A model generated the notes under the pieces. The model had not been told where the DNA came from. It made no database searches and saw only the letters and a program-made list of their open reading frames with translations. This document shows, piece by piece, positions 26,944-64,000 of a stretch of DNA of 64,000 bases (position 1 is the stretch's first letter; each line of letters starts with the position of its first letter). Origin of the DNA: Promethearchaeia archaeon (GTDB taxonomy: Archaea; Asgardarchaeota; Lokiarchaeia; Sigyniarchaeales; SOKP01); assembly GCA_029856155.1 (NCBI GenBank), contig JAHQWL010000088.1, positions 1 through 64,000 of the forward strand, written 5' to 3'. The translations under genes and the position numbers were made by a program.

Positions 26944-27999
26944 TTATTCTAATTCCTTAAAGTATGGGATTATCTTATCTCGAAATATTTCATAGACTTT
27001 ATTTGTATCGGGACCTCTATTCATTAAACTCATATGTGTTGCTCCGGCTTGTTTATATTTTTCTATACTTGAAATGACATCATCGATTGTGCCTAAACAA
27101 TTAGTATCTTGCAGAATTGTTTCAGGCAATTTATCCAGATTCTCTAAGTAATCCATTGAATTCATACTATTCATTTCAAAATCATGAACATTAAAATCTT
27201 CTGGTAAATCTAAGTTAGGATATGCTTCGTTCGTAATGAAGGAATTTAATAGATAGGAAGATTTAAAGAATTCACATCTTTTTATAGCATTCTCGGGATC
27301 CTCATTATCAATGGCTACAAAGCAATCATAAACATAATCAATCTCAGTAGGATCTCTGCCAGCTGCTTTTGCTGCATCAAAAACCTCTTTTTGTTTCTCC
27401 TTATAGAGCCATGGCGGTTGATAAAGTGGATACCACCCATCTGCTAATTCTCCAGTTATTTGACGAGTTTTTGGTCCATTGCCAGCAATATAAATTGGTG
27501 GACTTTTCTGAATTGGTTTTATTTGAATATAGGCTTTTTTTATTTCTCCCCAGAATTCACTGTTTCTATTAACTTTTTTCTTGGTCCAAAATTCCCTCAA
27601 TAAGATAATATACTCTCGTAATTTTGAAACAGATTTGTTTCTATCTAAACCATACATGTCAATATTCATTGCCTCTCCTGCTCCAAGCCCAATCATACCT
27701 CTCCCATTAGAGATCTGGTCTAATGTAGCTACTTTATGAGCCATTAATGCTGGATGAAAGCGATGACAATCAGAGACACCAGTGCATAATTTAATTTTTT
27801 TTGTTATCATCGCTAAGGATGTTAAAAAGCAATAGGCATCATAGCATGTTCCTGGACCTGGAGGTAACATTATTGTATGATCTGCATAAAAAACACCAAA
27901 AAACCCACACTCTTCAGCCTTTTTTGTTCCTTCGAACATATATTCAAGACGAGGCGTTGGTACAGGGATATGGAAACTAAACTTCATTATTCTAATCAT
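26944..27999 (-). CDS. LLM-class F420/FMN-dependent oxidoreductase
   Basis: A 351-residue luciferase-like TIM-barrel protein. Markers are MKFSFHIPVPTPRLEYMF, AEECGFFGVFYADHT, ALMAHKVATLDQISNGR, MIGLGAGEAMNIDMYG and PPIYIAGNGPKTRQITGELADGWYP. In archaea this family usually uses coenzyme F420 (Mer-like or F420-dependent dehydrogenases). The substrate is unknown. AGAGGAG directly precedes the ATG at 27999; the internal ATG at MKFSF is an alternative start. It is divergent from two related genes with a strong inverted repeat between them. Confidence 0.87.
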   Translation of the reverse strand: MIRIMKFSFHIPVPTPRLEYMFEGTKKAEECGFFGVFYADHTIMLPPGPGTCYDAYCFLTSLAMITKKIKLCTGVSDCHRFHPALMAHKVATLDQISNGRGMIGLGAGEAMNIDMYGLDRNKSVSKLREYIILLREFWTKKKVNRNSEFWGEIKKAYIQIKPIQKSPPIYIAGNGPKTRQITGELADGWYPLYQPPWLYKEKQKEVFDAAKAAGRDPTEIDYVYDCFVAIDNEDPENAIKRCEFFKSSYLLNSFITNEAYPNLDLPEDFNVHDFEMNSMNSMDYLENLDKLPETILQDTNCLGTIDDVISSIEKYKQAGATHMSLMNRGPDTNKVYEIFRDKIIPYFKELE

Positions 28000-28035
28000 A
28001 CTCCTCTAGTATTGTTTAATCTTTTTTTGAACATT

Positions 28036-28077
28036 ATTTATCAAAATTTGTATTTTTATTCAAATCTTTTGATAAAT
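28036..28077. promoter_or_regulatory. Inverted repeat between divergent LLM genes
   Basis: ATTTATCAAAA (28036-28046) is matched perfectly by TTTTGATAAAT (28067-28077). Symmetry continues inside with TTTG (28047-28050) and CAAA (28061-28064), offset by two bases. The element lies 36 bases from the leftward start and 73 bases from the rightward start. It fits a binding site for a dimeric regulator controlling both directions. Confidence 0.5.
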
Positions 28078-28150
28078 TTTAAAATCCAAGAGATTTATAA
28101 AATTTTTAGAATTTCTTTAACATAATAAGAAAATATATAGAAGTGATAAA

Positions 28151-29272
28151 ATGGATATTGATATAAAATTCGGGACAGAGGGTACATTTATCCCTCCTTT
28201 TGATAGGGGTATTGAAACCATAAAGAGAATCGAGAATAGTGGTTATGATTCAGTATGGTTTGCAGATCATTTAATGGGGTGGATTCCAGAATCAATTTGG
28301 ACTCCAGACCTTATTGAAATGTCAACAATTCAGAATAGTCCACATGATTTTTACGATGTTTTTTCTGTAATGTCAGTGGCAGCTTGGAACACTAAAAATG
28401 TTAAATTGGGTACGAGTGTTACAGAGACTTTTAGGAGACATCCAGCTGTGCTAGCCCAAACCTTTTTAACGTTGGATCATATATCAAAAGGGCGATCAAT
28501 TCTCGGCATCGGTACCGGTGAAGGGGAAAATATCATTCCATATGGTATAAAATGGGAGAAACCTGTTAGCAGATTGGAAGAGGCAATAAAAATAATAAAA
28601 CTCCTTTGGGAAAATGAAGGAAAAGTCAGTTTTGATGGGAACTTTTGGAAATTAAAAAATGCTGTCCTTTCTATAAAACCCTATGAAGAAAAAAAATATC
28701 CTCCGATATGGATCGCAGCACATGGCCCTAAAATGTGTGAATTGACGGGGAGATTAGGAGATGGTTGGATACCGTCCAACTTTAATCCTAAAACATATAA
28801 AGAAAAGCTTGATATTATTCAAAATTCAGCAAAAAAAGCAGGACGTAGTCCAGAAGATATTACACCCGGTTTATGGTGCAATTTAATTATTGATGAAGAT
28901 CATAATGAATGTGATAAACTATTAGAATCCGCTTATGTAAAAAACTATAGTTTAATTCAATCAAATGAATATTTTGAAAAATTTGGTATTTCACATCCAT
29001 TCGGCAAAGATTTTTACGGCCTTCTTGACTATATCCCTACAAACTATGACCGAGAAACTATGCTTGAAGCTTTTAGTAAGATACCAGCAAAATTGTGCGA
29101 TGAAAGTTTTTTACATGGCACACCAGATGAGATTATATCTAAAATTGAAGACTATGCCAAAGCTGGTTTGAAACATATTGTTCTTTATAATATTACCTAT
29201 AATTGCGATATTACTAAAATAAAAAGTTCATTTGGATGTGTAAAGAAAATATTACAATATTTCAAGGGTTAA
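28151..29272 (+). CDS. LLM-class F420-dependent oxidoreductase, tandem copy 1
   Basis: A 373-residue luciferase-like protein with the Mer-like blocks GYDSVWFADHLMGW, GTSVTETFRRHPAVLAQTF, LDHISKGRSILGIGTGEGEN and PPIWIAAHGPKMCELTGRLGDG. The conserved WADH/WFADH strand and the GTGEGEN loop mark F420-binding members of the family. GAAGTGAT precedes the ATG. It is a close paralogue of the next gene and more distant from the divergent one at 26944. The substrate is unknown. Confidence 0.88.
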   Translation: MDIDIKFGTEGTFIPPFDRGIETIKRIENSGYDSVWFADHLMGWIPESIWTPDLIEMSTIQNSPHDFYDVFSVMSVAAWNTKNVKLGTSVTETFRRHPAVLAQTFLTLDHISKGRSILGIGTGEGENIIPYGIKWEKPVSRLEEAIKIIKLLWENEGKVSFDGNFWKLKNAVLSIKPYEEKKYPPIWIAAHGPKMCELTGRLGDGWIPSNFNPKTYKEKLDIIQNSAKKAGRSPEDITPGLWCNLIIDEDHNECDKLLESAYVKNYSLIQSNEYFEKFGISHPFGKDFYGLLDYIPTNYDRETMLEAFSKIPAKLCDESFLHGTPDEIISKIEDYAKAGLKHIVLYNITYNCDITKIKSSFGCVKKILQYFKG

Positions 29273-29348
29273 ACTCTATGAAAAACTTTTTTCCAAATTA
29301 AATAATGTTTTTCCTATTGTTTTATTTATAATTTATAAGTGAGCAATT

Positions 29349-30482
29349 ATGGATATTTCAGAAATAAAAATAGGAACTGAAAGTAGCATTTTTGGACCAG
29401 TTGATAAGGGAATTACTCAAATAAAAAGGTTAGAGGAAATTGGTTTTGATTCTGTTTGGATGGCAGATCATTTAATGGGTTGGACCCCTGAATCAATATG
29501 GACTCCGGATCTTATTAAAGTAGCAGCGGTTCAACAAGATCCTCACATTTTTCATGAGGTATATTCTATATTAGCTGTTGTTGCATGGATTACAAATAAA
29601 ATATTGTTGGGAACAAGTGTCACCGAGACATTCCGAAGGCATCCAGCAGTATTGGCACAAACCTTGATAACTCAAGATAATATATCTAAAGGTCGAGTTA
29701 TTTTAGGAATTGGTACTGGAGAAGGAGAAAATATTGTTCCTTATGGGATAAAATGGGATAAGCCCGTAAGTAGGCTAGAAGAATCAATAAATATAATTAA
29801 ACTCCTTTGGGAAAGTGATAAAAAAGTAAATTATAACGGAGAATTTTGGAAGCTTAAGGATGCTGTTCTAACCGCAAAACCATTTAAAAAAAATAAATAT
29901 CCTCCTATTTGGATTGCTGCACATGGACCTAAAATGCTAAATTTAACTGGACGATTGGGTGATGGATGGTTACCCGCATATTCGGACCCTCAAGCTTATA
30001 AATATAGATTAAATCATATTCACAATGCAGCTAAAAAAGCTGGAAGAGATATTGATGAGATTACACCTGGTTTGTATTCATATCTAATTATAGATGAGGA
30101 TCATAACGCATGTGATGATTTAATTGGGAGTCCTTATGTTAAAAACATGTTGTTAACATTTCCGAATTCTGTTTATAAAGAATATGGAACAAAACATCCA
30201 TTAGGCGAAGATTTTTATGGATTAATTGATTACATTCCCACGAAATACGATCGAGAAACAATACTAGAAGCTATTAATAAAATTCCTCAAAAAATGTGTG
30301 ATGATCATATCTTGCACGGGACACCTGATGATATTATTGGAAAAATTGAAGAATATGCAAAGGTTGGAATGAAACATATTGTTCTTACTAACTTAACCTT
30401 TGTAAATGATTTATCGAAAGTTAAAAGCTCATATTATTATATGCAAAAAGTACTAAAATATTTCAAGGATAACAATCCTTAG
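29349..30482 (+). CDS. LLM-class F420-dependent oxidoreductase, tandem copy 2
   Basis: A 377-residue paralogue of the preceding gene, with the same blocks (GFDSVWMADHLMGW, GTSVTETFRRHPAVLAQT, GIGTGEGENIVPYG and PPIWIAAHGPKML). The two are similar along their whole length, including the C-terminal LHGTPDDIIGKIEEYAK, so this is a full-length tandem duplication. GTGAG precedes the ATG. The retention of two copies suggests different substrates or expression. Confidence 0.88.
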   Translation: MDISEIKIGTESSIFGPVDKGITQIKRLEEIGFDSVWMADHLMGWTPESIWTPDLIKVAAVQQDPHIFHEVYSILAVVAWITNKILLGTSVTETFRRHPAVLAQTLITQDNISKGRVILGIGTGEGENIVPYGIKWDKPVSRLEESINIIKLLWESDKKVNYNGEFWKLKDAVLTAKPFKKNKYPPIWIAAHGPKMLNLTGRLGDGWLPAYSDPQAYKYRLNHIHNAAKKAGRDIDEITPGLYSYLIIDEDHNACDDLIGSPYVKNMLLTFPNSVYKEYGTKHPLGEDFYGLIDYIPTKYDRETILEAINKIPQKMCDDHILHGTPDDIIGKIEEYAKVGMKHIVLTNLTFVNDLSKVKSSYYYMQKVLKYFKDNNP

Positions 30483-30756: not shown

Positions 30757-33700
30757 ATGACTAAAATTAACAATTATAATATAAAGAAAAATAAAATTGT
30801 TTGCATTTTAATTATTTTCCTTACATTACTTATAACTTCTGATGTTAATCGAATAGCTAGAGATAATCTAAATAAAAAAAATGAATCAGATCTCATAACT
30901 ACACCTAATAGTGATTTAGATTTAAAATTAAGTGATGAACCTTTAAATGAATATTCTGGAATAGGAAAAGCTCAAAATATTTCTGAAAGTGGGAATGGGA
31001 ATTTTCAAAATTACAATTTGGATATAACAAATAACGATAATGCTTCGATACAAGTTCCAAATTATTGGAAAGCTAATGAAATCATATGTAATATATCCAA
31101 TATTTATGAATATGATAAATATTGGATAAATGATACATTTGATTCGGGATATGATTCAGATTTTTGGAAAGGTTACACTAACTCTGAATATGTTTCTTTT
31201 GGTTGGCATGAGGCCTCAACTGGAACAAATGATTCAATATATATGAAATTTAGTGAATCTGGTGCTTCATGGGTTAATGTAATTGCTAATTGGAATTGTA
31301 CACTTCCAGTCCCAAAAGAACACATACCATTTGATAATTGGGAAATAATATATAAATACCGTGTAATATATACCGATTATACTTGGCTACCTGGTGGAGG
31401 TGCTTATAATAGTTTAACTATTGATGTTGATGGTAGATCTCAGGAATTTACTCAACAAAAGCTTGATACTTTAGATAATGATACCTGGTATACTGGAAAT
31501 GTTCCTTTGATTCAACCAGAGATATATAATTGGGCCCTTCCTGGCAATATATCATTAATATTTGAAATAGGTTATAAAAATTCTTTCATTAATCCAACGG
31601 GTTATTTAAAAGTATTTTATGATAATATTACTCTGAAATTATCGACAATCCCAAAACCCTCTCAAATAAATCTTACTATCAATGATTTGACTAATGGGTA
31701 TAATGCAAGTGTTAATGATCTTATTGAATTTGGTAAAGGGACAGTAAATTTAAAAAATACTTGGAATGGAGATGAAGGGGGAAAATACCATTATTTTTCG
31801 TTTTCCCATAATTCTACTGGTAATTTAGTTATCTATACAGATTTTTATGCAGAAGCTACATCCTCTCGAAAAACAAACTCGCTATTGTTGATCGAGGGGA
31901 GTGAATTTATGGCTGAAAATAATTCTAAGACACAATGGACAATGTTTTTTACAGTAACTCAACCTGGTTCTTATTCTAATGATTATTATTTCAATATTTC
32001 TAAACCATTAAATTGGAATATTACTGAGGTAATTGATCCTTATTTAAATAATAAAATAAATGATACAATAGGGGCAGGGTATGGTAATACAACTTTTACA
32101 ATTCCTAATAACATAATAACTAATGGTTTATGGAAATTTGTAGCGGAGGCTCCAAATTATATAAAAGAAGCAAATTTTTATAAATGGAGTGGTGTTGATT
32201 GGATTAAAAACTCTACTTTCCATCATGGAGAAAAATTAAAGATTAATGCTTCAATTAATACTGAATTAATTCCAATTACAGAATTAACAAATGGATCTTT
32301 ACAAATTTTTTATCCCAATGGAACCCTATTTTACGCAGAAAATACTTCTGTAAGTAGTGGTGGAAGTCTTGAATTTTCAGAAATTATCATAGGGAGAAAA
32401 AATGCAAGTGCTGGAAAATATTCAGTATGTATTATTTGGAATGATGATGATGTTAACATGACTCAAGTTGGATTCTATAAACTAGAATTTATTGTATACC
32501 ACCATACAAGTTTAACCGCTATTGACTCCTTTTTCGAACAGACTGCTGGAGAACCTCTCCTAATAAAAGTGAGATTTAATGATACTGTTCTTAATAAGGC
32601 AATTGAATTTGCGACAATCACTTATAAATCAACATTTGGTTCATCTGGAACAATGGCTTATATAGGTGCTGGAACATATTTTTCTGAAGTAAACACGGAT
32701 GGTTTGGCACTTGGAGATTATTATTTTTCATTTAATGCCTCAAAACTCTATTATGAGAATCAAACTGCTATAAATTTGATCCAATTAAGAATTATCGCCC
32801 AACCATTAACTTTGGAAGTGCCGAGTACTATTATTAGTGCGATTGCAAATGATTATGCTATTTGTCAGATAAATGTTACCGGGGCGATTTCTGAGGCGTT
32901 TATTACAGATGGTGTTAATATTAGCACGGATTGGGAAAATCCATATTCTATTGAAGATTTTAATAACGGTACATTCGAACTTAACTTTTCTACATATCAT
33001 TTACCCTCTCAAGGTATTATAGAGACTTTCACAGTTACTATTTTTGCTAATAAGACTGATTATGGGAGTACTACTAGCTATATTTCGATACAAGTAACAC
33101 CGTTAGCCACCACAGCATATTTAAACCAAACTGTTGTTAATGTATTATTAAATCAAGGTTTTTATTTAAAAGTAAATTATACTATTGCGGGAACGGGTGA
33201 ATTAATTACCGGAGCAACCTTAAATGTGACATGGGCATCAACTTATACGATTTTTCCTGTTGCTGATGGTTTTATCGTATATTTTTCTACTAGTGGTCTT
33301 TCAATAGATATCTATACAATATTCTTTCAATTAAATCATCCAGAATATCAAACAGCATTCGAAAGCATATTTGTAATTATAGAGGAAAATCCAACTTATA
33401 TCGAAGTATATTTGAATCAACTAGACAGAACAACGGAAAAAACGATAACGATTCAATGGAATGAGGCTTTAAATATTACTATTTTATATAAAGATTCTTT
33501 AACCAATGATTTTATTTCTGGGGCTATAGTATATATGAATGGATCAGGGATTTCAAGAGTCTTAGATGAAAACGGACAACAATATTATACTATTTTAAGC
33601 TCGGGAGTCATGTCTGTTGGAATTCATTTTTTGACGGTTTCAATTGAAAAAGATAATTATATTTTTGTTTCAGAGATTCTTAAAATAGTAGTAGAACAAG

Positions 33701-34881
33701 TAGTAATTTCTGTTGGGACTATCGATATTGAAAATTCTCTTGATGTTTATGCTGGAAGTGATCAATTAATTAAAATAAACTTAACGGAACAAAATTCTGG
33801 AAATTTAATTCCAAATGCCAATATCTCCTTCTTGTGGAGATTTGATATAGGTGAATTTGAAAATTTAGGTGATGGTACTTACCAAGTTCAATTAAATATT
33901 CCAAGTAGTGCATTGGGAAGTTATAGCGTAGAGCTTATAATATCTGTTGAAGGAGGATACTATAAAACAACAGAATCGTCTTTTCTTATAGTAGTATTAC
34001 AAGAACAAACTCCAGATAATAGTTATTTAATCTGGGTAATAGCAATAGTGCTATTAAGTGTAATAGGGGTTCTTGGCGTTTTAATTGCAAGAAGTTATAT
34101 ATTCTTACCGAGGAAAAGAGAAAAGGAACAACAATTTTTAGACAAAATTCAAGTCTTTAAAGATCTTGAGAATATTCAAGGAATTATGCTTATTCAAAAA
34201 TTAAGTGGCATGCCATTTTTCACAAAAAGTGTTTCTGAATTTAATTTTGAAGAAAATATTCTAATTTCTGGTTTCATTCAAGCAATTACTTTATTTGGTG
34301 AACAATCTGTTATAGCTACTTCATTAAAAGAGAAAAAAAAACATCATGAAATATATTCTGAACATATAATTGAATTGAATTTCAAATTTTTTCATTTGTT
34401 GATTTGTGATTATCAGTGTCTAAGAACTCTTCTGATCCTTAAAGATGCATCTTCAGAGAAATTAAAAAATCAGTTATATATATTAACAGTTGAAATATGC
34501 TCTAAGTTTTCAGAAGAAATAGAAGATTATAAAGGAAAAGCTATTGAATTTGAAGAGATTATTGAAATTTTAATGAACAAGTTCTTATTTTTATTTTATA
34601 ATGAGCCTTTTAAGTTAAATCAAGGTGAAGTCTTTATAGAGTCTATGAAAAAGAGTCGCGAATTAGAATCAATGGAGTCTCGAGTTCTTAATGTAATAAT
34701 AACTTTAACCAATTATAGTGAAGAAATCACACTAGATAGAATAATTCAAGAAATTGGCGAGGAAAATATAGATTTAATTTATGGGGGTTTACAATCTTTA
34801 ATTGAAAATAAATTTATACTTCCTGCCTATTTCAAAAATAACAATTCAAATTCTTCACCAAGTAAATCGATAAAGGGTTAA
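30757..34881 (+). CDS. Giant surface protein with Ig-like repeats, one membrane span and a cytoplasmic longin-like domain
   Basis: A protein of about 1374 residues. It begins with a signal or anchor helix (KIVCILIIFLTLLITS). A long extracellular part (about 45-1085) follows, rich in Asn-x-Ser/Thr sequons and beta-sandwich-like repeats, for example 'GTYFSEVNTDGLALGDYYFSF' and the later 'GDGTYQVQLNIPSSALGSYSV'. The transmembrane helix is at about 1088-1115 (LIWVIAIVLLSVIGVLGVLI), then a basic stop-transfer. The cytoplasmic part (about 1120-1374) begins IQGIMLIQKLSGMPFFTK and ILISGFIQAITLFGEQ, then alternates strands and helices in a longin/roadblock-like pattern. That layout suggests a receptor or adhesin coupled to small GTPases. 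ATG at 30757 is preferred over TTG at 30739. Fold calls are inference by eye. Confidence 0.72.
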   Translation: MTKINNYNIKKNKIVCILIIFLTLLITSDVNRIARDNLNKKNESDLITTPNSDLDLKLSDEPLNEYSGIGKAQNISESGNGNFQNYNLDITNNDNASIQVPNYWKANEIICNISNIYEYDKYWINDTFDSGYDSDFWKGYTNSEYVSFGWHEASTGTNDSIYMKFSESGASWVNVIANWNCTLPVPKEHIPFDNWEIIYKYRVIYTDYTWLPGGGAYNSLTIDVDGRSQEFTQQKLDTLDNDTWYTGNVPLIQPEIYNWALPGNISLIFEIGYKNSFINPTGYLKVFYDNITLKLSTIPKPSQINLTINDLTNGYNASVNDLIEFGKGTVNLKNTWNGDEGGKYHYFSFSHNSTGNLVIYTDFYAEATSSRKTNSLLLIEGSEFMAENNSKTQWTMFFTVTQPGSYSNDYYFNISKPLNWNITEVIDPYLNNKINDTIGAGYGNTTFTIPNNIITNGLWKFVAEAPNYIKEANFYKWSGVDWIKNSTFHHGEKLKINASINTELIPITELTNGSLQIFYPNGTLFYAENTSVSSGGSLEFSEIIIGRKNASAGKYSVCIIWNDDDVNMTQVGFYKLEFIVYHHTSLTAIDSFFEQTAGEPLLIKVRFNDTVLNKAIEFATITYKSTFGSSGTMAYIGAGTYFSEVNTDGLALGDYYFSFNASKLYYENQTAINLIQLRIIAQPLTLEVPSTIISAIANDYAICQINVTGAISEAFITDGVNISTDWENPYSIEDFNNGTFELNFSTYHLPSQGIIETFTVTIFANKTDYGSTTSYISIQVTPLATTAYLNQTVVNVLLNQGFYLKVNYTIAGTGELITGATLNVTWASTYTIFPVADGFIVYFSTSGLSIDIYTIFFQLNHPEYQTAFESIFVIIEENPTYIEVYLNQLDRTTEKTITIQWNEALNITILYKDSLTNDFISGAIVYMNGSGISRVLDENGQQYYTILSSGVMSVGIHFLTVSIEKDNYIFVSEILKIVVEQVVISVGTIDIENSLDVYAGSDQLIKINLTEQNSGNLIPNANISFLWRFDIGEFENLGDGTYQVQLNIPSSALGSYSVELIISVEGGYYKTTESSFLIVVLQEQTPDNSYLIWVIAIVLLSVIGVLGVLIARSYIFLPRKREKEQQFLDKIQVFKDLENIQGIMLIQKLSGMPFFTKSVSEFNFEENILISGFIQAITLFGEQSVIATSLKEKKKHHEIYSEHIIELNFKFFHLLICDYQCLRTLLILKDASSEKLKNQLYILTVEICSKFSEEIEDYKGKAIEFEEIIEILMNKFLFLFYNEPFKLNQGEVFIESMKKSRELESMESRVLNVIITLTNYSEEITLDRIIQEIGEENIDLIYGGLQSLIENKFILPAYFKNNNSNSSPSKSIKG

Positions 34882-39238: not shown

Positions 39239-39570
39239 TTATAAAAAAAACTGTTTTATAACAGTTATATATTCATATCTGGTCACAAGAAGAATTCCTT
39301 CATTTAGATTTATATCAAGAATCCTTTCTAGATGCATTACTTCCTCACTCACTATCTCAATGGTATTAAGAAAACCTGAAAAAACAGTTTCGGTTATATT
39401 CATGTCTGTCCAGTCATGATCATATAAAGGATTACCTTTATTATCTCTTACCGCGATTCTATAAACAATATAAGGCAAAAAATAGAGAATTTTAACTTTT
39501 TCATGATACCTATTGTTATTATTAATATTCAAATGAAATTTGATAGTTGGACGAAAGTGTTAAAAATTAA
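39239..39570 (-). pseudogene. Relic of a 7TM-longin sensor gene (duplicate of part of 40715-42040)
   Basis: A 97-codon frame (39239-39532) carries ILYFLPYIVYRIAVRDNKGN and ILDINLNEGILLVTRYEYIT, almost identical to the longin-like segment of the intact gene at 40715-42040. Nucleotide similarity continues past the frame's ATG to about 39570 (matching about 41453). All seven membrane helices and the C-terminal tail are missing, and the frame ends in an unrelated IKQFFL. This is a degenerate partial duplicate. Confidence 0.8.
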
Positions 39571-40714: not shown

Positions 40715-42040
40715 TTATTCTAAATATTTATTTTTTTCTACTTCTTCCTTTGACTTTTTCAATTCCAATTCATCAATTTCATTTTTAAATTCATCATAGA
40801 AATCAAAAAATTCAGAAGGGTCTGAATATGGAGTTTTAATTAATTCATTTAAAACATTTTCATATTCATCTTCGTTTTCAAAAATATTTTTAAAATTATT
40901 CTCAATCTGTTTTGGCAATTCATGATATTTAGCTGATAATGTCATAAGCTGGTTTTTATTTTTAATATTCTGATATGGAATAATTGAGAAGTATTTATTT
41001 ATAAACTCATAAGCTGATTTATACTCGTTCATATCTATACAAGATTTTTCGAGAAGACTTTTAAATTTATTTTCAAAATCATTTGTAAAATTATTAACAC
41101 AATCTCTTAATAATTTGGATGCTTTAGATGCAAGTAAACAAACAGTTATATATTCATATCTGGTCACAAGAAGAATTCCTTCATTTAGATTTATATCAAG
41201 GATCCCTCCTACATGCATTACTTCCTCACTCATTATCTCAATGGCATTAAGAAACCCTGAAAAAACAGTTTCGGTTATATTCATATCTGTCCAGTCATGA
41301 TCATATAGAGGATTACCTTTATTATCTCTTACCGCGATTCTATAAACAATATAAGGTAAAACGTAGAGAATTTTAATATCTTTTATGATAACTATTGTTA
41401 TTATTAATATACCAATCAAATTTGATAGATAGACGAAAATGTTAAAAATCGGATTAATATTATTGAGTAGATGAAATATAGAACCTCCAACAAATATTAT
41501 AGTTCCTGTAAAACATAATAAAGATTTTTTTTTATAATAAAAAGGGCTACTTGACCACGTTTTAATCCCCCAGAAAAATAAATAAGTAAGAAATACTGAA
41601 TAAAAGATAATAAATGCAATATTAAAGAGTCCATTAGGTACATATTTTTCAAATCCCATTTCTATTACAAGCTTGACAGCGTTAGGTTGGGTTCCCAAAA
41701 AAATAAGTAAAAAACCCAAACAACAGGATAAAATAAGACCAAAAGTATAATATGACTCTTTTAACATATTATTAAAAAATAGAATAAAAAAGAATGTAAA
41801 TGGGAATACAAGCATAATATGAATACGAGCAAAAGCTCCATTTTCAAAAATAATAGAAATAATATTTGTTAAAAAATATAAGCCCAAAAACCATGATGTT
41901 AGTCTTAAATAAAATAACAGTGGAAATCTTTTCGTAACCTTAGATACCTGTATTGCGATCGTTATTATTAGAAAGATTACCGTCATGGAAATTAAAGAAG
42001 CAAACTCTAAAATAATAAATAAGTTCATAATGATCCCCAT
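40715..42040 (-). CDS. 7TM membrane sensor with cytoplasmic longin/roadblock-like domain
   Basis: A 441-residue protein. Seven hydrophobic helices span residues about 5-225. A cytoplasmic alpha/beta domain follows (about 228-335): LPYIVYRIAVRDNKGNPLYD, then TETVFSGFLNAIEIMSEEVM, ILDINLNEGILLVTRYEYIT and CLLASKASKLLRDCV. This order of strands and helices resembles longin/roadblock folds. The tail (335-441) is acidic and helical. The layout mirrors bacterial 7TM sensor kinases but with the kinase replaced. It lies just downstream of a winged-helix gene on the same strand and divergent from a sugar ABC operon, suggesting a role in sensing its substrate. A second ATG at 42028 is an alternative start. 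The fold call is inference. Confidence 0.7.
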   Translation of the reverse strand: MGIIMNLFIILEFASLISMTVIFLIITIAIQVSKVTKRFPLLFYLRLTSWFLGLYFLTNIISIIFENGAFARIHIMLVFPFTFFFILFFNNMLKESYYTFGLILSCCLGFLLIFLGTQPNAVKLVIEMGFEKYVPNGLFNIAFIIFYSVFLTYLFFWGIKTWSSSPFYYKKKSLLCFTGTIIFVGGSIFHLLNNINPIFNIFVYLSNLIGILIITIVIIKDIKILYVLPYIVYRIAVRDNKGNPLYDHDWTDMNITETVFSGFLNAIEIMSEEVMHVGGILDINLNEGILLVTRYEYITVCLLASKASKLLRDCVNNFTNDFENKFKSLLEKSCIDMNEYKSAYEFINKYFSIIPYQNIKNKNQLMTLSAKYHELPKQIENNFKNIFENEDEYENVLNELIKTPYSDPSEFFDFYDEFKNEIDELELKKSKEEVEKNKYLE

Positions 42041-57612: not shown

Positions 57613-58161
57613 ATGGACGGAGAGAAATTTACTTTCAAAATTACAGTGATCGGAGATGGTGCTGTAGGAAAAACGTCATTAATCCGAAAATTTACTGAAG
57701 GTGGTTTTGAAGATGCCTATATCCAAACTATAGGAGCACAATTTTCTAAATATACTGAAGAAATAGATGGTGATAACTGTAAATTATTTTTTTGGGATAT
57801 AGCGGGTCAAGATACCTTCCATTTTTTACGTCCTGCTTTCTATAAATCTAGCTTGGCTGCTATTATTGTATTTTCTCTTGAAGAAAATGATTTTGGTAGA
57901 GATAGTTTTAAACATGTCCAGAATTGGCAAAATGAAATAAAAAAATTCTGTGGAGAAATACCTATTTTACTGTTTGGAAATAAAGTTGATTTAATTGATG
58001 AGAAAAACTTCGATGAAGAGAAAATCCAAAAATTTGTTGATAAAAAAGACTTTTTTGGGTATTATAAGACTTCCGCTAAAACTGGACAAGGAGTATACGA
58101 AGCATTTCAAGCAATTATTCAAAACTTATATTCTAAATACAAGGAAATCTCTGAAAAATAG
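57613..58161 (+). CDS. Ras-superfamily small GTPase (Rab/Ras-like)
   Basis: A 182-residue complete G domain. G1 is GDGAVGKTSL, the switch I region QTIGAQFSKY supplies the G2 threonine, G3 is FWDIAGQDTF, G4 is LFGNKVDL and G5 is TSAKTG. The glutamine of WDIAGQ is present, so GTP hydrolysis should work. There is no C-terminal prenylation cysteine. GTGAT lies seven bases before the ATG, and a TATA-like TTTATAAAT lies at about 57564-57572. This is a eukaryote-type GTPase expected in Asgard archaea. Confidence 0.93.
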   Translation: MDGEKFTFKITVIGDGAVGKTSLIRKFTEGGFEDAYIQTIGAQFSKYTEEIDGDNCKLFFWDIAGQDTFHFLRPAFYKSSLAAIIVFSLEENDFGRDSFKHVQNWQNEIKKFCGEIPILLFGNKVDLIDEKNFDEEKIQKFVDKKDFFGYYKTSAKTGQGVYEAFQAIIQNLYSKYKEISEK

Positions 58162-58824: not shown

Positions 58825-59868
58825 TTATTGATGGGATTTAATTAAACTTTCCGCCAATTTATAAAAGCTTTCTTCTACATTTTTTCCAGTTAACGCAGAA
58901 GTCTCAATATACTCTAAATTAAGTTCATTTGCGATTTTTAGTGCTTCTTCAGATGCTATATTTCTTTTAGACATTAAATCTTCCTTATTTCCTAAGATAA
59001 AGCCAATCAAAATTTCTTGCGAAGGAACAACATTTTTTTTAATATCTTCGTACCAATTTTGAATACTTTCAAAAGATTTGCGATTTGTTAAATCAAATAT
59101 TAAAATTACTGCTTCTAGCCCCATATAAAAATGACGCCTCATAAGCTCGAATTTACTTTGTCCTGCGATATCCCAAAGAATCAAATTGACATGATCATCT
59201 TGTACTTGAATATTTTTTTCTGAAATTGATACACCCAACGTAGGAATATAGGTTTGCATAAAGGCATGATCTATAAACCGAAGTATGGTGCTTGTTTTTC
59301 CAACTCCTGGATCTCCACATACAACAATTTTATAGTTGAATCCTAATCCTCTTTCTCTTGGTTTTTTTTCTTCTGGAAAAGCCTCTACTGTAGTGATCTT
59401 TTTTTCTTTATTACGTAGGTCATCTAAAATTTCTGAAATTCTAGTTTTCAAATTGGTTAGTTCAACATAAATTTCATCAGAATTAGCCTTTCTATTCTCT
59501 AATTCAATAATTTTTTGAACACTATCAGCAAATGTAGACTCAAGATAATTAATATATTTATAGAAAATAAGGTCATATGCTTCATTGAATAATACTGTAA
59601 TTGATGATATTGCCGCACCTCCCCTGCTAGCTTCATTTTCTCGTTCTACATATTTAATGATACCTTTTAAATTGAACATTGGAAAAGGAATTATAACTAA
59701 AGACTGAGGTATGATTCCTTGATCAGTTGAGAGAATCGTGATTGATTTAATGCTCACTGACATTCGAATGTCATCTTGTAGATCAACTGGATCCCATAAA
59801 AAAGGTTGTGGACCAACTTTTTCGTCCAATAACGTATAAACTATTGAGGTGATTATTTTTTCAGTCAT
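58825..59868 (-). CDS. Longin-like domain fused to a Ras-type GTPase, copy 1
   Basis: A 347-residue protein. Residues 1-120 form an alpha/beta domain of longin/roadblock type (IVYTLLDEKVGPQPFLWDP, SVSIKSITILSTDQGI, LVIIPFPMFNLKGIIKYVER, ISSITVLFNEAYDLIFYKYI). A coiled linker follows (about 125-170). The G domain (about 176-345) has GDPGVGKTST, TYIPTLGVSIS, LWDIAGQSKF, LGNKEDL and TSALTG. In eukaryotes longin and roadblock domains are partners of GTPases; here both are in one chain, which may self-regulate. An 8-base inverted repeat lies about 130 bases upstream. A homologous gene is next on the same strand. Confidence 0.88.
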   Translation of the reverse strand: MTEKIITSIVYTLLDEKVGPQPFLWDPVDLQDDIRMSVSIKSITILSTDQGIIPQSLVIIPFPMFNLKGIIKYVERENEASRGGAAISSITVLFNEAYDLIFYKYINYLESTFADSVQKIIELENRKANSDEIYVELTNLKTRISEILDDLRNKEKKITTVEAFPEEKKPRERGLGFNYKIVVCGDPGVGKTSTILRFIDHAFMQTYIPTLGVSISEKNIQVQDDHVNLILWDIAGQSKFELMRRHFYMGLEAVILIFDLTNRKSFESIQNWYEDIKKNVVPSQEILIGFILGNKEDLMSKRNIASEEALKIANELNLEYIETSALTGKNVEESFYKLAESLIKSHQ

Positions 59869-60037: not shown

Positions 60038-61081
60038 TTACAAACGTGATTTGTACAATAAAGTAGCAATTGTAGAAAAAGCATAATCAACATTTTCTCC
60101 TTGTAGTGCAGAAGTTTCTATAAACCCTAAATTTAATTGGCTTGCTAGATTATTTGCCATATCAGTTGTTATTATTCTCTGCTCAACTAAGTCGTTTTTA
60201 TTTCCAATAACAAATCCAGTTAGCATATCTGATCTATTTTTTAATTGAGCGAGGACATCAGAATACCACTTTGGAATGCTATTAAAGGTCTCGATTCTAG
60301 TTAAATCAAAAACTAAAAAAACCGCGTCAAAACCTCGGTAAAATTGTTGCCTCATTGTTTCAAATTTGACTTGTCCTCCTATATCCCATAAAGTTAATTG
60401 AATTATAGCATCTTCAACCTTAAATATCTTATCTGTTACATGAACTCCTAGAGTTGGTACATAAGATCTTCTAAACGCATTATTTGTATATCTTAAGATT
60501 AATGAAGTTTTACCTACGGAGGGATCGCCTATTATTATTATTTTAAATTGATAATCTATTAAACTTCGGTCTTTATATTGCTGTTCAGGGAATGCCTCAC
60601 TCTCTTGTTGAGCCATTTCTTGAAGTTTTAATTCTTCCAAAAGAGCAGATATATTAAATTCAAGATGTTCAATTAATTTAACGAAATCTTCCCTGGATGC
60701 TTTTGATTTTTCTAAATTTATTATTTCTGGTGTAAGATTATTAAAAGGAATAGATAGATCATTAATATATTTATAAAAAATTACATCATCTATTTCTTGA
60801 AACAACAATACAAGTGCAGATAGACCAATACTTCCTCTTCTTGAAGGATCATCCCATTTAATGTATTTAACAATTCCCTTCAAATTCTTTGAAGGAAAGG
60901 GGAGGATTACTAAAGATTCTGGGATAAGTCCTTCTTCACCCGATAGGATTGTTAATGCCTTAATGCTTATGTGAATTAAATCCATTTGTGTGAATGTATT
61001 GGGTTTCCATGCTACGGGATTTGGTCCCATTTCATCACTCATTTCTATGTATACTATCCCTTGAATTATTTGACGTTTCAT
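60038..61081 (-). CDS. Longin-like domain fused to a Ras-type GTPase, copy 2
   Basis: A 347-residue homologue of the gene at 58825-59868 with the same layout. The longin-like domain (IVYIEMSDEMGPNPVAWKP, SIKALTILSGEEGL, LVILPFPSKNLKGIVKYIKW) is followed by a linker and a G domain with GDPSVGKTSL, SYVPTLGVHVT, LWDIGGQVKF, IGNKNDL and TSALQG. DIGGQ in place of DIAGQ in G3 is the main difference, so switch II may behave differently. No lipidation cysteine is seen. Confidence 0.88.
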   Translation of the reverse strand: MKRQIIQGIVYIEMSDEMGPNPVAWKPNTFTQMDLIHISIKALTILSGEEGLIPESLVILPFPSKNLKGIVKYIKWDDPSRRGSIGLSALVLLFQEIDDVIFYKYINDLSIPFNNLTPEIINLEKSKASREDFVKLIEHLEFNISALLEELKLQEMAQQESEAFPEQQYKDRSLIDYQFKIIIIGDPSVGKTSLILRYTNNAFRRSYVPTLGVHVTDKIFKVEDAIIQLTLWDIGGQVKFETMRQQFYRGFDAVFLVFDLTRIETFNSIPKWYSDVLAQLKNRSDMLTGFVIGNKNDLVEQRIITTDMANNLASQLNLGFIETSALQGENVDYAFSTIATLLYKSRL

Positions 61082-63849: not shown

Positions 63850-64000
63850 TTATACAATTAATTCAATTTTTTTTCCGCAAAAACTACATTTTTTTAATTC
63901 TCTACTAAAAAATTCTCCACATTCATTACATTTTTGTAAATTTGCATCTATTATTTCTTTAGCTATACTTAAAAATGCTTCTTTTACATTTTGCCCTGTT
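63850..64000 (-). CDS. Small GTPase with C-terminal zinc ribbon (N-terminus outside the window)
   Basis: Reading leftward from the window end, 50 codons encode TGQNVKEAFLSIAKEIIDAN, which is the G5-following helix of a Ras-like GTPase (SAKTGQNVKEAF type). A zinc ribbon follows, KCNECGEFFSRELKKCSFCG (CxxC...CxxC), and the stop at 63852-63850. Most of the G domain lies beyond the window. It converges with the enoyl-CoA hydratase gene. Confidence 0.75.
   Translation of the reverse strand, partial: TGQNVKEAFLSIAKEIIDANLQKCNECGEFFSRELKKCSFCGKKIELIV

Follow-up and report, generated by a model that had tools for sequence, protein, structure and literature searches.

A widespread family of Asgard archaeal surface proteins with a predicted cytoplasmic longin/roadblock-like domain

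The gene and its product

The gene analyzed lies at positions 30757-34881 on the forward strand of a 64,000-nucleotide stretch of DNA (contig JAHQWL010000088.1, positions 1 to 64,000; Promethearchaeia archaeon, assembly GCA_029856155.1), referred to here as the window. The source genome is a 4.1-Mb assembly that is 97% complete. The open reading frame (ORF) is complete from an ATG at 30757 to its stop codon and encodes 1374 amino acids (aa), as an earlier note on this DNA had it with 1.37 kilo-residues; a TTG located 18 bp upstream of the ATG is a possible alternative start. Homologues were found, and the ratio of nonsynonymous to synonymous substitution rates (dN/dS) against close homologues indicated purifying selection, with values of 0.21-0.29 for the cytoplasmic tail and 0.36-0.69 for the faster-evolving ectodomain.

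Hydropathy places a hydrophobic helix at the N-terminus (residues 9-27, or 11-27 when delimited as 30787-30837), a signal peptide or signal anchor that was also modeled as a helix, at a low predicted local distance difference test score (pLDDT). It is followed by a sequon-rich, all-beta ectodomain of ~1060 aa (residues ~30-1090, 30844-34026) and a membrane helix (residues 1091-1116, 34027-34104; 1092-1110 in a narrower delimitation) identified by hydropathy, structural model and a positive-inside test. The cytoplasmic part of 257 aa begins with a basic juxtamembrane motif, PRKREKE, from residue 1118 (34108-34128; alignments and charge test), and is predicted to comprise a longin/roadblock-like domain (residues ~1119-1282, 34111-34602) and a C-terminal winged-helix-like domain (residues ~1291-1357, 34627-34827). 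The protein had been described as single-span; one membrane helix does follow the ectodomain, but the description requires cleavage of the N-terminal helix and was taken as a reasonable reading.

Topology and ectodomain

The ectodomain carries 40 N-X-S/T sequons against 16.8 expected from shuffling (maximum 29; 0 of 2000 shuffles reached 40), and the tail 2 against 1.9 expected. When 66 family members were taken together, their ectodomains held 2194 sequons (958 expected) and their tails 70 (90 expected). Mean net charge over the 20 residues flanking the membrane helix was +4.7 on the C-terminal side and -1.3 on the N-terminal side, with the same direction in 66/66 members. Because of this sequon distribution and flanking charge, the ectodomain was assigned to the outside and the tail to the inside of the cell, which answers the concern that the tail might be extracellular. 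From sequence, the protein thus has the predicted layout of a type I surface receptor or adhesin, with an exported and probably glycosylated ectodomain, one membrane helix and a cytoplasmic tail.

An AlphaFold2 (AF2) model of the ectodomain (34 sequences, mean pLDDT 71.7, predicted template modeling score (pTM) 0.39) was all-beta up to the membrane helix. Foldseek matched it to titin Ig domains, macroglobulin domains of complement C3/C4/C5 and MDGA1, with E-values down to 3e-14 and low template modeling scores (TM-scores), as expected for a flexible chain; confidence in the model was moderate. In Pfam, a few homologues matched MG2, Invasin_D3 or Big_11. A BLAST self-comparison of the ectodomain revealed no internal repeat; homologues nonetheless align at shifted registers. 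The sequon-rich Ig-like repeats of the earlier note are borne out by model, fold matches and sequon counts, and the modeled ectodomain may be described as tandem Ig-like beta-sandwiches, for which a macroglobulin-type label would be equally fair.

Fold of the cytoplasmic tail

The AF2 model of the tail (49 family sequences, mean pLDDT 79.7, pTM 0.75) contained helices at tail residues 2-22, 51-70, 117-139 and 149-160 and strands at 23-30, 36-41, 87-91, 96-102 and 105-111. The order of these elements includes the beta-beta-alpha-beta-beta-beta pattern with flanking helices of the longin/roadblock core, and the set is, as modeled, such a core (a-bb-a-bbb-a-a). In alignments a conserved motif, [LI][FI][SA]GFIQAI, sits on the central helix of this domain. 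A second set of modeled elements (helices at 174-183, 188-201, 209-216 and 221-233, and a strand at 237-239) looks like a winged helix.

A Foldseek search of the PDB with the tail returned longin/roadblock-type subunits, or complexes containing such subunits, in 50/50 of the matches listed, in accordance with the fold proposed for the cytoplasmic part in the earlier note. The top match was the Sec22b longin (E 2e-4, TM-score 0.72 on target), then VAMP7 and AP sigma; further matches were LAMTOR, TRAPP, zeta-COP, dynein LC7 (0.67) and a Thorarchaeal roadblock protein. The sequence searches gave some matches to dynein heavy chain; these were weak and helical and were rejected. The fold had been ascribed to the first ~100 cytoplasmic residues; the fold assignment held, but with its extra helix the core takes up ~145-165 aa, and the winged-helix-like domain comes next.

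Longin domains differ from the roadblock subtype in having no N-terminal helix and an additional C-terminal helix (PMC10933270). The tail core has two C-terminal helices, a longin trait, and an N-terminal helix, a roadblock trait that may be just a juxtamembrane linker; because both are present, the domain is termed longin/roadblock-like. Neither the protein nor the profiles, when searched against Pfam, NCBIfam and PDB sequences, yielded a usable match to the tail, which may explain why it carries no annotation. No SNARE family match was found in the tail searches, and the membrane helix precedes the longin, so no SNARE motif lies between them.

Other copies of the longin in the source genome

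With a profile made from eight members of the family, 22 copies of the longin were identified in the same genome, and the ORFs were sorted by reading. Ectodomain, membrane helix and longin are combined in the window gene and in one gene on each of contigs C33, C49 and C77. Longin-GTPase fusions, with the longin N-terminal to the GTPase domain and no membrane helix, occur on C54 (two), C50 and C68. Seven membrane helices precede the longin in genes on C28 and C103 and at 40715-42040 of the window, and tetratricopeptide repeats (TPR) accompany it on C71, C100 and C92; the remaining copies are soluble or short longins. In profile-profile comparison (HHalign), the tail matched the GTPase-fused longins at 97% probability (E 8.6e-11) and the seven-helix longins at 97% (E 1.2e-10). 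The Pfam GTPase domain was clearest in the C68 fusion (Roc 2.5e-15, Arf 5e-15) and weak for C54 and C50; homologous fusions gave a sub-threshold Pfam match to Fuz_longin_1.

The seven-helix protein of the window (40715-42040, reverse strand, 441 aa) carries the same longin type at its C-terminus (profile match E 2.5e-10) and had no Pfam match. A Njordarchaeal relative was found at locus L086. Such proteins are possibly a second class of receptors with longin tails. Part of the longin of the seven-helix gene is duplicated in decayed form at 39260-39570 (reverse strand); the copy shows 89% identity over 81 aa and is preceded by a frame change and a stop codon.

Distribution in Asgard archaea

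Single-sequence searches found tail matches in 60/61 genomes of the source organism's own archaeal family, with up to 10 per genome, and profile searches found the longin module in 130/145 Asgard genomes. All 19 surface-type matches fetched, drawn from several families, orders and classes (families f1, which is its own, f2, f3, f4, f5, f10 and f16), have the order ectodomain, membrane helix, basic motif and longin. Sixteen of 20 further matches from other Asgard families (f8, f10, f13, f16, f19 and f22) share the layout, and the other four are soluble. The combined count for full-length distant ORFs is 35/39, in eleven Asgard families, and the layout was therefore taken as a phylum-wide feature and no chance fusion; the search for this architecture in Asgard genomes, suggested in the earlier note, thus found it widespread. 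It occurs in Lokiarchaea as well, the contig scan for homologues having used sequence patterns typical of the Lokiarchaeal subfamily. The largest member (L141) has 3033 aa, ~2400 of them outside.

GTPase genes and gene context

Three complete Ras-family GTPase genes, which are candidate partners, lie in the window at 57613-58161 (forward strand; Pfam Ras 7.3e-43), 58825-59868 (reverse strand; Ras 4.5e-47) and 60038-61081 (reverse strand; Ras 2.7e-44). The latter two are paralogues of 347 aa each and share a kind of N-terminal domain of 170 aa, to which no family was assigned. A related N-terminal domain of RagA-like GTPases gave a sub-threshold match to Folliculin (longin). Of the four small GTPases counted in the window by the earlier note, the fourth, also of the Ras family (63949-64000, reverse strand), is cut by the right edge. 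Their presence in the same window as the surface-protein gene had been read as a hint of a link; this argument was dropped, because with 77 Ras-family matches across the 4.1-Mb genome co-occurrence in one window means little.

Some family genes do have GTPase genes as same-strand neighbors: on C77 of the same genome, in genomes G044 (contig C17), G018 (contig C5, with a 16-bp gap), G021 and G026. On C77 (L180) and in G044 (L188) they form a same-strand array of TPR protein, Ras GTPase, second GTPase and longin-tailed membrane protein. The locus of the C33-type paralogue is kept in >20 Lokiarchaeal genomes (L044, L050-L070 and others) and comprises the longin-tailed surface protein, a YkgJ-like Cys protein, a 540-aa protein with no Pfam match, a methyltransferase-like protein, a 164-aa protein, an eL13-like protein (recognized by eye), a small longin, a transglutaminase-like secreted protein and a RagA-like GTPase. 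In the source genome one part of this locus lies at the right end of the contig that holds the window (C88, 79-89 kb) and the other at the start of C33. A study of strain MK-D1 likewise found that GTPase genes rarely share an operon with the regulators presumed for them (PMC10933270). Gene context neither proves nor excludes a GTPase link. Upstream of the surface-protein gene, three adjoining genes (26944-30482) recognized by eye appear to form a duplicated set of the luciferase-like (F420-type) oxidoreductase family.

Proposed function and alternatives

The fusion of this longin type to Arf/Ras-like GTPases in the source genome makes plausible a receptor or adhesin role for the GTPase system, as proposed in the earlier note. 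Dimers of roadblock or longin domains are established platforms for GTPases (PMC10933270). The same-strand GTPase neighbors of some family genes and the C33-type locus with its small longin and RagA-like GTPase also count in favor of it. The proposal that this probably glycosylated surface protein is receptor- or adhesin-like and uses its tail as a docking or regulatory platform for GTPases is the reading we prefer, and we judge it to be evenly balanced. Under this proposal the ectodomain would bind other cells, surfaces or ligands, and the longins would pair through the conserved central helix (SGFIQAI) in the manner of roadblock and longin domains. The resulting sub-membrane dimer could recruit at least one of the ~77 Ras-family GTPases or act on it as a guanine nucleotide exchange factor or GTPase-activating protein. 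Contact outside would then set the state or place of the GTPase inside and lead to membrane or actin remodeling, with the winged-helix part possibly acting as a protein-protein module that recruits an effector.

Several observations weigh against a GTPase role. The GTPase genes of the window are >20 kb from the surface-protein gene. Among the immediate neighbors of 112 family genes GTPases made up 8/186, against 28/496 of other ORFs at the same loci (p 0.57), so that no enrichment of immediate adjacency was found, although the conserved RagA locus inflates the background count. The window gene and its orthologues have histone-deacetylase-like, Fe-S protein, epimerase-like and KBL-like neighbors in common, and no GTPase gene lies within 8 kb of the orthologues. 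GTPase regulation is not a property of all longins, those of SNAREs being an exception (PMC10933270), and the tail paralogues could have diverged in function.

The longin might instead serve to dimerize, sort or anchor an adhesin or envelope protein, clustering it or tethering it to an internal coat or scaffold with no GTPase regulation. There are eukaryotic precedents in the VAMP7 and Sec22b longins and the sigma subunits of AP coats, the same proteins that head the Foldseek matches; the adjacency statistics agree with this explanation, and Lokiarchaeum cells bear abundant complex surface proteins and no ordered S-layer (PMC9834061). The fusion of this longin type to GTPase domains in the same genome argues against it, however, as does the presence among the Foldseek matches of the roadblock/longin-type GTPase regulators LAMTOR and TRAPP, and we consider it unlikely, if still worth serious weight. 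An improbable alternative is that the tail ties surface cargo to ESCRT, its longin and winged helix releasing vesicles or turning over the surface through recruited ESCRT-II/III or adaptin-like proteins. Published Asgard multidomain proteins join Vps28-C and adaptin appendage with longin, Ig-like and HTH/PCI domains, and archaeal ESCRT systems have winged helices among their core components (PMC10936438); a winged-helix-like domain is present in the tail model. Pfam searches of the protein, by contrast, found no Vps28-C, steadiness box or adaptin domain, and no ESCRT gene was present among the recurrent neighbors that could be named, several neighbors being nameless. The same modeled domain would allow a membrane-tethered one-component transcription regulator of the ToxR/CadC kind, in which the winged helix binds DNA on ligand sensing, but its recognition-helix position is acidic across the family, with a mean net charge of -2.24 and no member positive, against -1.35 for the whole domain, and DNA binding is the least likely of the rivals and very improbable.

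Taking the GTPase platform proposal to the level of the phylum, the longin-tailed single-pass receptors and their seven-helix kin may form a large Asgard class that signals to or recruits Ras/Arf/Rag-type GTPases at the plasma membrane, with no known counterpart and possibly predating eukaryotic GTPase signaling and traffic. We put this forward tentatively, as a possibility somewhat short of even.

Comparison with known systems

Asgard longin-GTPase and roadblock-GTPase fusions (PMC4917890, PMC10933270) occur in the same phylum and genome, and their longin is homologous to the tail, as the HHalign comparison above indicates. They have no membrane helix, whereas the window protein places the longin on a surface protein that lacks a GTPase domain. 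The longin SNAREs Sec22b and VAMP7 have the longin fold and one membrane helix and gave the best Foldseek matches. In SNAREs the longin is N-terminal and is followed by the SNARE helix and a C-terminal membrane helix, with nearly nothing extracellular; in the window protein a 1060-aa ectodomain is present, the longin follows the membrane helix and a SNARE helix was not identified. Ragulator/LAMTOR, TRAPP and MglB share the tail fold and its presumed dimerization but are soluble or peripherally anchored and lack an ectodomain. Archaeal and bacterial Ig-repeat surface adhesins have a similar glycosylated ectodomain of tandem beta-sandwiches, the glycosylation being predicted here; they are not known to carry a longin tail.

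Asgard ESCRT-related multidomain proteins have an overlapping domain vocabulary (longin, Ig-like, HTH/PCI) but are defined by Vps28-C or the steadiness box, often with an adaptin appendage, none of which was found in the window protein, and in the passages of that paper covered here they are not presented as surface receptors (PMC10936438). For Lokiarchaeum, 41 longin domains have been reported, and some Asgard longins are fused to Arf-like GTPases; the same 2016 review stressed that SNARE and coiled-coil domains are absent from the Loki longins (PMC4917890). Lokiarchaeum cells have been observed to bear complex surface proteins (PMC9834061). No published surface, transmembrane or receptor longin of Asgard archaea was found in the open literature, preprints and most subscription journals lying outside this search.

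Asgard genomes encode dozens of small GTPases and longins, and the longin-tailed surface family is a direct candidate for what ties them to the membrane and to outside signals. If so, this would suggest that longin-GTPase pairing served the cell surface first, ahead of internal compartments. The domains are known and their architecture is new and widespread; proof of the GTPase link would make it a novel type of receptor system.

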